A DNA stretch of 64,000 bases, taken from positions 466,206-530,205 of the forward strand of contig NZ_LMDN01000001.1 in assembly GCF_001425085.1 (NCBI RefSeq). Reading direction: 5' to 3'. This document shows, piece after piece, positions 11,059 to 15,982 of the stretch. The DNA is from Leifsonia sp. Root4. GTDB lineage: Bacteria > Actinomycetota > Actinomycetes > Actinomycetales > Microbacteriaceae. Each line of letters starts with the position of its first letter. Within the stretch, counting starts at the first letter, position 1. The notes beneath the pieces are model-generated. The model was not told where the DNA came from and searched no databases. It saw only the letters and a list, made by a program, of their open reading frames with translations. A program made the translations under genes and the position numbers.

Positions 11059-11301
11059 CTAGGCGTGCTGCTGGCTGAGGCGCAGACGCGCGAGAACCTG
11101 GTCGCGCAGGTCTTCCGGCGCACTTTCCTTGCACGCCCGCTGCACGGCCTCGGTCAGAACCTGTCCGACGAGATGCTCCGTGGTGCACTCCGGGCAATTC
11201 GCGAGGTGTTCCCGGATGTCTGCGGCATCCGTGCTGCACAGCTCATTGTGCAGATATTCCTCGAGTTCAGCCTTGGCTTTCTCGCATCCGCAATCACTCA
11301 T
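11059..11301 (-). CDS. rsrA: Zinc-containing redox anti-sigma factor RsrA
   Basis: 80 residues with the ZAS motif H32-x3-C36-x2-C39 (EHLANCPEC) plus further cysteines at 4, 6 and 22. Family knowledge: under reducing conditions zinc-bound RsrA holds SigR inactive; disulfide stress forms an internal disulfide and releases SigR, which switches on thioredoxin and mycothiol genes. Its ATG overlaps the sigR stop (ATGA), so the two are translationally coupled, the standard arrangement. Confidence 0.93.
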
Positions 11302-12011
11302 TTTTTGCTCCTTGGTGCTGTGACACCGGTGTCGGGTGTGGCGCGGCCGATGCCCTGTTCGAGGGCGTAGCCGGCCAGCATCTCGCGCAGCATCCGTCGG
11401 CCGCGGTGCAGGCGGCTCATCACGGTGCCGATGGGGGTCTTCATCATGTCGGCGATCTCCTGGTAGGAGAAGCCTTCGACGTCGGCGAAGTACACGGCCA
11501 GGCGGAAGTCCTCCGGCAGCGACTGCAGCGCGTCCTTCACGGTGCTGTCTGGCAGGTGGTCGATCGCTTCGGCCTCCGCCGAGCGGCTCGAACTCGCGGT
11601 GGTCGACTCTGCGCCACCCATCTGCCAGTCTTCGAGATCATCGATCGTGCCCTGATAGGGCTCGCGCTGCTTCTTGCGGTAGGTGTTGATGAACGTGTTC
11701 GTCAGGATGCGGTAGAGCCACGCCTTGAGGTTCGTGCCCTGCTCGAACTGCTTGAACGCGGCGAAGGCCTTGACGAAGGTCTCCTGCACGAGGTCTTGCG
11801 CGTCGGAGGGATTCTTCGTCATCCGCAGCGCAGCACCGTAGAGCTGGTCGATGAACGGGAGTGCTTGTTCTTCGAACAGCGTGCTGAGGTCAGGAGTTGC
11901 TGCGCCGAGCGCCTCGGCGTCTGTGGAGTCGGTGGTCATCACCGGCAATCTTAGAGCGTCTGCCACTGCGAACGCCCCGCTGGGGCGATCGAGCAATGCG
12001 GTCTGCGCCAT
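11298..12011 (-). CDS. sigR: ECF sigma factor SigR/SigH (thiol-oxidative stress)
   Basis: 237 residues. Region 2 ([23 protein letters not shown], then the [23 protein letters not shown] segment) binds the -10 element. Region 4 ([42 protein letters not shown]) recognises the -35 element GGAAT. The start was placed at MAQTALLD because GAGGAG lies 4 bases upstream. MTTDSTD, 24 residues in, is an alternative; Streptomyces SigR is also known to exist in two lengths. It is followed by rsrA with a 4-base overlap and is divergent from aroA. A SigR-type promoter for it lies at 12061-12088. Confidence 0.93.
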
Positions 12012-12060
12012 CGTTCTCCTCGTCATCAGCCTGCGCCATGGAGCGGCACCGACTACTCTG

Positions 12061-12088
12061 ATAACCAATGCTGATCTCGAGATATTCC
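12061..12088 (-). promoter_or_regulatory. SigR-type autoregulatory promoter of sigR
   Basis: On the minus strand, GGAAT (12084-12088) and GTTAT (12061-12065) are separated by 18 bases, a full match to the actinobacterial SigR/SigH consensus GGAAT-N18/19-GTT. It sits over the first codons of aroA, about 50 bases before the sigR start, and fits the known positive autoregulation of sigR. Confidence 0.75.
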
Positions 12089-13459: not shown

Positions 13460-14527
13460 ATGAGCTGGTGGAGCGATGACGCCGACGACGACGAGCCGGA
13501 GTTCGATGAATCCGCCGTGCGGGTGCGGCCCAACCGCAAGGGCAACCGGCCGCGCACCAAGACCAGGCCAGAGCACAGCGACGCCCTGACCGGTCGCGTG
13601 CTCGGCGTCGACCGCGGCCGCTACACGGTGCTGCTCGACGAGAACACGCCCGACGAGCGGCAGGTCACGTCCGCGCGCGCCAGCGAGCTGCGCAAGAAGG
13701 CTGTCGTCACGGGCGACCGCGTCGACATCGTCGGCGACACCACCGGTGCAGAGGGCAGCCTCAGCCGCATCGTGCGCATCCAGCCCCGCGTCACACTGCT
13801 GCGCCGCAGTGCGGACGACACCGACGCCGTCGAGCGTGTGATCGTCGCCAACGCCGACCAGATGCTCATCGTCGTCGCCGCGGCCAACCCGGAGCCGCGC
13901 ATCCGTCTCGTCGACCGCTACCTGGTCGCCGCCTACGACGCCGGCATCACGCCGATTCTCTGCATCACCAAGACCGACCTCGCCGATCCGGCCGAATTCC
14001 TGGCGAACTTCGCCGGACTCGAGTTCCAGGTCTTCACGAGTCGGAGCGACGAGATGCCGCTCGAGGCCATCAGCTCCGCCCTCGTCGGCCACGACACCGT
14101 GTTCGTCGGCCATTCCGGTGTCGGCAAGTCGACGCTCGTCAACGCGCTCGTTCCCGACGCCAAGCGCGCCGTCGGCGTCGTCAACACCGTCACGGGGCGC
14201 GGCAGGCACACCTCCTCCTCGACGGTGTCACTGCGCCTCGAGACGGAGGCGGGCCGCGGCTGGGTCATCGACACCCCCGGTGTGCGCTCCTTCGGCCTCG
14301 GCCACATCAACACCGACAACATCCTGAAGGCCTTCACCGACCTCGCGACGGTCGCGGAGGCCTGCCCGCGCGGCTGCAGCCACCTGCCCGACGCTCCGGA
14401 CTGCGCGATCATGGAGGCCGTCGCGGCCGGAAGCCTCGGCGACACCGGCCCGGCCCGCCTCGACTCGTTGCAGCGCCTGCTGGCCACCTTCGCGCCGTCC
14501 AACCGCACGGTCAGCACCGAGCGCTGA
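13460..14527 (+). CDS. rsgA: Ribosome small-subunit-dependent GTPase A
   Basis: 355 residues. A basic N-terminal extension (RPNRKGNRPRTKTRPEH) is followed by an OB-fold and a circularly permuted GTPase (CITKTDLAD as the G4 motif, then GHSGVGKSTLVNALV as G1, then DTPGVRSFGL as G3). A C-terminal zinc knuckle (CPRGCSHLPDAPDC) closes the protein. RsgA acts in late 30S maturation and responds to nucleotide state. It sits 30 bases after aroA, as in many actinobacteria, and probably shares its transcript. Confidence 0.94.
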   Translation: MSWWSDDADDDEPEFDESAVRVRPNRKGNRPRTKTRPEHSDALTGRVLGVDRGRYTVLLDENTPDERQVTSARASELRKKAVVTGDRVDIVGDTTGAEGSLSRIVRIQPRVTLLRRSADDTDAVERVIVANADQMLIVVAAANPEPRIRLVDRYLVAAYDAGITPILCITKTDLADPAEFLANFAGLEFQVFTSRSDEMPLEAISSALVGHDTVFVGHSGVGKSTLVNALVPDAKRAVGVVNTVTGRGRHTSSSTVSLRLETEAGRGWVIDTPGVRSFGLGHINTDNILKAFTDLATVAEACPRGCSHLPDAPDCAIMEAVAAGSLGDTGPARLDSLQRLLATFAPSNRTVSTER

Positions 14528-14561
14528 CCGTGCGCCGGCCGGCACCGGCTACGGTGGAAGC

Positions 14562-15041
14562 ATGACCGAATCTGTGCGCCTCGAGCCCGGCCAGCCCGCC
14601 CCCGCCTTCACCCTCAACGACCAGAACGGTGCTCCGGTGTCGCTGTCCGACTACCGCGGCCAGAAGGTGGTGCTCTACTTCTACCCGGCGGCCATGACGC
14701 CGGCCTGCACGACCCAGAGCTGCGATTTCCGCGACAGCCTCGGCTCGCTCGCCGCGGCCGGGTACCAGGTGCTCGGCGTCTCCAAGGATTCCGTCGCGAC
14801 GCTGGCCGAGTTCGCCGAGCGCGATGCGCTGACGTTCCCGCTGCTGAGCGATGAGGACCTCACGGTGCACAGGCTCTACGGCGCCTGGGGCGAGAAGAAC
14901 AGCTACGGCCGCATCATCACGGGCACGCTACGCTCCACCTTCGTGATCGACGAGGACGGGCACGTCTCGCACACCTTCTACAACACGAAGGCGACGGGCC
15001 ACGTGGCGATGCTGCGCAAGCGTCTGAAGATCAGCGCCTGA
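14562..15041 (+). CDS. bcp: Thioredoxin-dependent thiol peroxidase (peroxiredoxin Q/BCP)
   Basis: 159 residues. The AhpC/TSA fold carries the peroxidatic cysteine C49 in YPAAMTPACT and a likely resolving cysteine C54 five residues later, the BCP pattern. It reduces hydrogen peroxide and organic hydroperoxides using thioredoxin. A TACGGT hexamer ends 6 bases before the ATG without a clear ribosome site, so it may be leaderless. Its 3' end runs into an array of 14-base repeats in which every unit ends in TGA (15014-15083). Confidence 0.92.
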   Translation: MTESVRLEPGQPAPAFTLNDQNGAPVSLSDYRGQKVVLYFYPAAMTPACTTQSCDFRDSLGSLAAAGYQVLGVSKDSVATLAEFAERDALTFPLLSDEDLTVHRLYGAWGEKNSYGRIITGTLRSTFVIDEDGHVSHTFYNTKATGHVAMLRKRLKISA

Positions 15042-15109: not shown

Positions 15110-15550
15110 TCAGCCCTCGTCGTGGGCGAACTGGTTGCGGATGCCGGGCGCGAGCAGCAGCGCGATGACGATGAGCGACGGGGCCAGCAGGGCCCAGCCG
15201 AGTTCCGGCCGCGCGTAGATGCCCTGGAAGCAGCCGACGGCGATCGCGATCTGCATCAGCTGCCAGCTGATCGCGCCGCCCCGGATCCAGGAGCGCCTCT
15301 GCACGGCGCCGATTGCGACGGCGGTCACGAAGACGAACGCGACGATCGTGAGCACGAGGATCGCGACGGCGCTGACGAAGGAGGCCGGCTGCTCGGTGAT
15401 GAGCTCGAAAACGAGCCACATCACGGCGACGAGCATGAGAGCCGCCTCGGCGAACAGCAGCGCGAACAGCAGCACCATCCCGCGTGACGGGCGACGTCGG
15501 AATGGGGGGTACATTCCCCGGTTTTCAGGGGTAGACAGCTCGTTACTCAC
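15110..15550 (-). CDS. Four-helix membrane protein of unknown function
   Basis: 146 residues with four hydrophobic segments (about 27-48, 58-80, 93-108 and 115-133), a short polar N-terminus and an acidic end (FAHDEG). I do not recognise a family; proteins of this size and plan are common next to bcp or whiB genes in Microbacteriaceae. The GTG start at 15550 was chosen for length. A second candidate is the ATG 12 codons in (MYPPFRRRP). It converges on bcp and is divergent from the whiB1 promoter region. Confidence 0.65.
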   Translation of the reverse strand: MSNELSTPENRGMYPPFRRRPSRGMVLLFALLFAEAALMLVAVMWLVFELITEQPASFVSAVAILVLTIVAFVFVTAVAIGAVQRRSWIRGGAISWQLMQIAIAVGCFQGIYARPELGWALLAPSLIVIALLLAPGIRNQFAHDEG

Positions 15551-15733: not shown

Positions 15734-15982
15734 ATGGATTGGCGCGATAAAGCTGCCTGCCTCACAGCCGACCCCGAGCTGTTCTTCCCTGTTGGGAACA
15801 CCGGACCGGCCGTCGACCAGATCGAGAAGGCCAAGACGGTCTGCGGTCGATGCAATGTGACCGAGATCTGCCTGCAGTACGCGCTCGAGACCGGTCAGGA
15901 TTCCGGCGTCTGGGGTGGCCTGAGCGAAGACGAGCGCCGCGCACTCAAGCGCCGCGCCGCACGCGCACGCCGCGCCTCCTAG
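15734..15982 (+). CDS. whiB1: WhiB1-type iron-sulfur transcriptional regulator
   Basis: 82 residues, almost superimposable on mycobacterial WhiB1: MDWRDKAACL, ELFFPVGN, cluster cysteines C9, C37, C40 and C46, the turn GVWGGLSEDERR and a basic C-terminus (ALKRRAARARR). Wbl proteins bind a [4Fe-4S] cluster that reacts with nitric oxide, and WhiB1 partners the primary sigma factor. AAAGGAG lies 7 bases before the ATG. It is followed by two back-to-back hairpins and converges on the pdtaS-like gene, as Rv3219 does on Rv3220c. Confidence 0.95.
   Translation: MDWRDKAACLTADPELFFPVGNTGPAVDQIEKAKTVCGRCNVTEICLQYALETGQDSGVWGGLSEDERRALKRRAARARRAS

Follow-up and report, generated by a model that had tools for sequence, protein, structure and literature searches.

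At the locus considered here, aroA, for EPSP synthase, is read in one direction, and sigR, followed by a gene for an rsrA-like anti-sigma factor, in the other (the window being the whole stretch of 64,000 nucleotides that was analysed, with, as a high-GC actinobacterium, 69% GC). The features are collected in Table 1. The aroA gene is the sole full-length match in the genome, and its product is 92% identical to AroA of Microterricola pindariensis, so that the genus is probably Microterricola; the family, Microbacteriaceae, is taken from the named loci found by AroA similarity. By a TIGR02947 score above the cut-off, the SigR of the window is a member of the curated SigR/SigH-group family. The rsrA-like protein scores 56.2 bits with TIGR03988, under the cut-off of 62.5, and 31.6 over 22.2 with PF13490 (zf-HC2); HxxxCxxC, read by eye, is present in it. 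Downstream of aroA are rsgA and a gene for a thioredoxin-dependent peroxiredoxin (window 13460-15041).

Table 1. Genes and predicted signals at the aroA-sigR locus (positions in the window)
Feature	Position	Strand	Basis or remark
aroA, EPSP synthase, 453 aa	12068..13429	+	TIGR01356 366 bits, cut-off 287.25
-35 element GGAAT of p2 (SigR-dependent sigR promoter)	12084..12088	-	doubles as part of aroA codons 6-7 (TAT TCC)
-10 element GTTAT of p2	12061..12065	-	GTT at 12063-12065, two bases before aroA ATG
TACTCT, predicted SigA-type -10 of leaderless aroA mRNA	12054..12059	+	TANNNT conservation before aroA ATG
AGGAG, ribosome-binding site of long SigR form	12016..12020	-	upstream of ATG 12011
sigR long form (SigR'-like), 237 aa, start ATG 12011	11298..12011	-	TIGR02947 305.7 bits, cut-off 251.55
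TAAGAT, predicted -10 of second sigR promoter p1	11948..11953	-	8 bases before ATG 11939
sigR short form, 213 aa, start ATG 11939	11298..11939	-	TANNNT-N8-ATG conservation
rsrA-like anti-sigma factor, 80 aa	11059..11301	-	start overlaps sigR stop (ATGA)

The original prediction was of a SigR promoter for sigR embedded in the 5' end of aroA, and the geometry that it gave is borne out. On the minus strand GGAAT (12088-12084), 18 bases and GTTAT (12065-12061) follow one another, an exact match to the SigR-type consensus GGAAT-N18-GTT with spacing within the accepted range. The motif does overlap the first seven aroA codons, GGAAT being in codons 6-7, and the distance to sigR, put at about 50 bases, is 50 from the end of the motif to the ATG of the long form. 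The aroA gene begins inside the spacer of this promoter, p2 (its ATG is at 12068-12070). Features that go beyond the prediction are the leaderless-type -10 element of aroA (12054-12059), a second sigR promoter and start (p1; 11953-11937) and the conservation of the arrangement in the family.

A chance match as the origin of the motif is ruled out by shuffles, by a reversed-pattern control and by its conservation in the family. GGAAT-N17..19-GTTAT has a single match in the 64-kb window, where dinucleotide shuffles average 0.02 (2 of 100 shuffles had one), and six sites in the whole genome versus none for the reversed pattern. Since its position is conserved family-wide, since the SigR of the window scores above the curated cut-off and since the same motif is upstream of trxB in this genome (L241; GGAAT-N18-GTT some 70 bases before the likely start), the sequences strongly support the claim of a SigR promoter for sigR inside aroA. 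Of the five other GGAAT-GTTAT sites in the genome (L007 to L011), four could be placed by eye: they precede a putative sufB (L010) and a putative luciferase-like monooxygenase gene (L011), lie upstream of a putative heavy-metal ATPase gene (L008) and fall in rRNA (L009). In the window itself, GGAAT-N17-GTT on the plus strand (15499-15523) marks a possible further SigR target, a WhiB-family gene lying some 210 bases downstream, at 15734. With regard to where transcription would begin, the numbering used for the homologous SigH promoters of Corynebacterium glutamicum has GGAAT at -35 to -31, its T being at -31 (PMC10012870, available text), and because of this the p2 start for sigR is predicted near 12053, adjoining the aroA -10.

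How widely the arrangement is held was assessed by calling a locus locked when ATTCC (the reverse of GGAAT) is at +17 to +21 of an in-frame aroA ATG. Locked loci made up 186 of the first 200 examined from Microbacteriaceae and 5 of 7 read later, 191 of 207 in total with the window's own included. By source, the lock was present in 104 of the 120 genomes sampled evenly from the family (the window among them), in 7 of 7 others and in 80 of 80 named loci, the last a biased figure as these were found by similarity to the AroA of the window, partly via the peptide just behind codon 7. The first 200 loci consisted of 113 of the 120 evenly drawn genomes, three genus genomes, four family genomes and the 80 named loci; the seven read later are the remainder of the 120. 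Some named loci duplicate species already sampled, and L005 and L101 are, judged by length, the same contig; the 186 locked loci comprise 176 distinct stretches of 120 bases. For flanking features 114 clusters (75% identity over 120 bases) were built from the 186 locked loci only, and counts given per cluster are conditioned on the lock. Divergence of sigR from aroA was seen in 172 of 173 family loci, the remaining one being without sigR in the stretch examined. Among the 186, the distance from AAC (the reverse of GTT) to the aroA ATG is 2 bases in 154 loci, 1 in 28 and 3 in two, and two loci have no AAC there; single-base differences in spacer length are confined to the non-coding flank, which the reading frame leaves free to vary. 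Loci with an otherwise clearly dissimilar AroA N-terminus keep the lock as well.

Facing p2 is a TANNNT box, which we take to be a SigA-type (housekeeping) -10 element. It is 6-10 bases before the aroA ATG in all 114 clusters (7-9 bases in 112), and is also present in each of the 14 non-locked loci of the first 200 and in six of the seven read later, L246 being the exception. A comparable box marks p1: with SigR starts anchored across loci by tblastn positions, TANNNT-N8-ATG in the sigR frame is found in 114/114 clusters versus no more than 12/114 for each of the other spacings between 0 and 19. It is present in 9 of the 12 non-locked loci having sigR (those without are L081, L098 and L245) and, in leaderless-type form, in 27 of the 28 sigR loci outside the family but within the order (L181-L211), where spacings of 6-9 were searched and all matches were at 8. 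As it occurs outside the family in this way, leaderless-type p1 seems to predate the aroA lock. An in-frame upstream start with a ribosome-binding site is available between the two sigR promoters in 101 of the 114 clusters (missing, by a loose criterion, in 13). Of 99 segments of the extension that it would add, 94 have no stop in the sigR frame, the figures for the other frames being 78 and 44, and mismatches by codon position (82/92/130; 43 pairs) have a mild lean to third positions, a weak codon signal; its translation is likely. For the window, p1 would give the 213-aa SigR, and SigR-driven p2 a form with 24 extra N-terminal residues.

The lock is dispensable, as 16 of the 120 evenly drawn family genomes are without it. 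In eight of these GGAAT-N16..20-GTT is kept upstream of sigR and the aroA start is further downstream (L053, L058, L064, L072, L081, L089, L093, L097); in four sigR is present and GGAAT-N16..20-GTT is absent (L098, L233, L235, L245); and in four sigR was not found in the stretch examined (L083, L227, L237, L246). Within the first class L053, L064, L072 and L089 form one clade with the aroA start shifted downstream and provided with its own TANNNT box, the former aroA ATG now reading CTG in L053 and AAC in L072 (by eye). On a FastTree tree of 197 of the 200 family loci (three were under the length limit) with four outgroup rows and none of the seven later loci, the lock changed at least six times. 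Each non-locked group is nested among locked ones, and because of this the lock is best read as ancestral in Microbacteriaceae. Outside the family, 33 stretches were read from 102 genomes, and none of these 33 loci from other families of the order has the site at the aroA start; sigR is 0.6-8.8 kb from aroA in 28 of the stretches and was not seen in the other five. A CAT-containing spacer at the order-level locus L182 is a coincidence, the reading frame there being only 11 aa.

Whether the constancy at codons 6-7 reflects DNA or protein needs to be judged with the way in which the loci were chosen in mind. Codon 6 in the 186 locked loci is TAT in 177, CAT in five and AAT in four, so that the residue changes (Tyr, His, Asn) under a constant GGAAT; xAT at codon 6 and TCC at codon 7 hold by construction in a set picked by ATTCC. 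The informative facts are the retention in 104/120 and the lack of any synonymous variant among the other loci: Tyr, Asn, His or Asp followed by Ser, in other codons, was present at codons 6-7 of no candidate aroA start in the 16 non-locked family loci or the 33 order-level loci. In the remainder of these aroA genes TAT accounts for only 13% of Tyr codons and TCC for 25% of Ser codons. Given that retention, the absence of the site from the 33 loci of other families and the want of synonymous variants in non-locked loci, the target of selection appears to be the DNA, in its role as a SigR promoter, and not the protein. A protein-level explanation of TAT TCC is ruled out by the residue changes at codon 6 together with the missing synonymous variants. 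It is scarcely credible that GGAAT..GTT as a whole is no promoter and follows only from conservation of the N-terminus of AroA (xYSxP) and from the bases next to the start codon, even if AroA residues 9-11 are also fairly conserved among locked loci. Besides what has just been described, codons 2-5 and 8 use 26-31 different codons each (114 clusters), GGAAT persists in the eight loci where aroA starts further downstream, and the order-level loci are without the site. Should the promoter be real, its user might be another ECF sigma factor, e.g. of SigE type, since SigE and SigH share some promoters in C. glutamicum; this is improbable, as the shared class there is GGAAC and GGAAT the SigH-only class (PMC10012870, available text), and as p2 faces the SigR gene itself.

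A more serious alternative is that the overlap exists without regulatory effect on aroA. Ancestral intergenic compaction would have placed the aroA start inside p2, indels would later have been blocked by the reading frame and the promoter spacing, and p2 would be too brief or too weak to alter aroA output. The separation of the two genes outside the family is compatible with this, and the nesting of non-locked lineages among locked ones, with at least six changes, implies that separation is tolerated. Yet 104 of the 120 evenly drawn genomes retain the lock although separation is possible, and open complexes on the same bases would have to compete to some degree. The probability of an overlap without effect may be set only slightly short of even. 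Conservation alone does not separate selected coupling from historical lock-in.

Several parts of the arrangement have precedents. In Streptomyces, sigR is read from p1 to give stable short SigR and from p2 to give unstable extended SigR' (PMC4921905, PMC5472188, as available in part). The sigR-rsrA locus of Streptomyces coelicolor resembles that of the window in having a SigR-dependent upstream p2 for the extended form, p1 for the short form without stress, and rsrA downstream. It differs in that p2 of the window lies in aroA coding sequence and over the predicted aroA promoter, in that p1 of the window looks leaderless (TANNNT-N8-ATG), and in the extension, 24 aa in the window versus 55 (PMC4921905) or 58 (PMC5472188) in Streptomyces; the two forms of the window may also differ in stability. 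The sigH-rshA system of C. glutamicum is like that of the window in its consensus, GGAAT-N18..19-GTT (PMC10012870), and in having an autoregulated sigma factor with an anti-sigma factor; its operon has several promoters, one of SigA type overlapping a putative LexA site, and the available text of the paper on that operon has no mention of aroA. A different type of precedent is S. coelicolor SigE, which lowers expression as a direct repressor where its site overlaps HrdB promoters (PMC10771440, available text). As in what is proposed for the window, the binding site of an ECF sigma factor overlaps a promoter of housekeeping type; in S. coelicolor the ECF polymerase is suggested to act as a barrier, whereas in the window the ECF site is a divergent promoter kept across the family. 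A single SigR site overlapping coding sequence, that of SCO3162, is on record in the accessible part of PMC2375139. Among the titles and abstract openings listed from the open-licence literature, a scope outside which most subscription papers fall, none dealt with a sigR promoter inside aroA or with Microbacteriaceae. The SigR motif, autoregulation and the two-isoform design are already known; what this locus adds is a lock fixed by the reading frame, set against a leaderless-type promoter of opposite direction and retained by the majority of the family.

The reading preferred here, to which a probability of roughly 0.8 can be attached, is that three promoters (p2, that of aroA and p1) are packed in about 140 bp, and that p2, with its -35 in aroA codons 6-7 and its -10 just before the aroA ATG, serves SigR-dependent autoregulation and conflicts with the aroA promoter. 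The latter faces the opposite way, its TANNNT adjoining the p2 start, and its mRNA would begin at the ATG or 1-2 bases from it; p1, of housekeeping type and inside the long sigR reading frame, would provide leaderless mRNA for short SigR. In unstressed cells SigA-RNA polymerase would read aroA and p1, with RsrA holding the short SigR. Under disulfide stress SigR would be freed and SigR-polymerase on p2 would yield N-terminally extended SigR, a positive feedback. Because p2 and the aroA promoter occupy the same DNA, they can be expected to compete: the stretch to be melted would be shared by both open complexes (about 12052-12070), SigR-polymerase opening that of the aroA -10 and SigA-polymerase at aroA the GTT of p2, leaving room for polymerase on one or the other and not both. 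For as long as SigR is active, initiation at aroA would then fall, and p2 in turn would be damped by a strong aroA promoter. In the window and most sampled family members, aroA and sigR can probably not both be switched on at once. The original prediction had SigR-driven transcription colliding with aroA initiation. The conflict is supported by geometry, in particular by the TANNNT 6-10 bases before the ATG in every cluster; promoter occlusion is a more fitting term for it than collision.

A stronger form of the proposal is more tentative: with SigR-polymerase on p2 blocking access to the leaderless aroA promoter, disulfide stress would throttle the shikimate pathway at the initiation step without the help of a repressor protein. 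As an extrapolation this may hold, at rather less than an even chance. If true, the own promoter of a stress sigma factor would be a stress brake on a core biosynthetic gene, written into AroA codons, and the coupling would have been retained in most lineages since the ancestor of Microbacteriaceae. From a different perspective the locus shows clearly how a promoter on the other strand can hold bacterial codons in place, the residue being able to vary (Tyr, Asn, His) and the promoter bases remaining constant over most of the family. In addition, a further lineage joins Streptomyces in having the sigR design with two promoters, its housekeeping start being of leaderless type. The family, with its locked and its separated lineages, is a natural test case: divergent promoters that overlap and answer to different sigma factors may be a regulatory device or a hard-to-undo accident.
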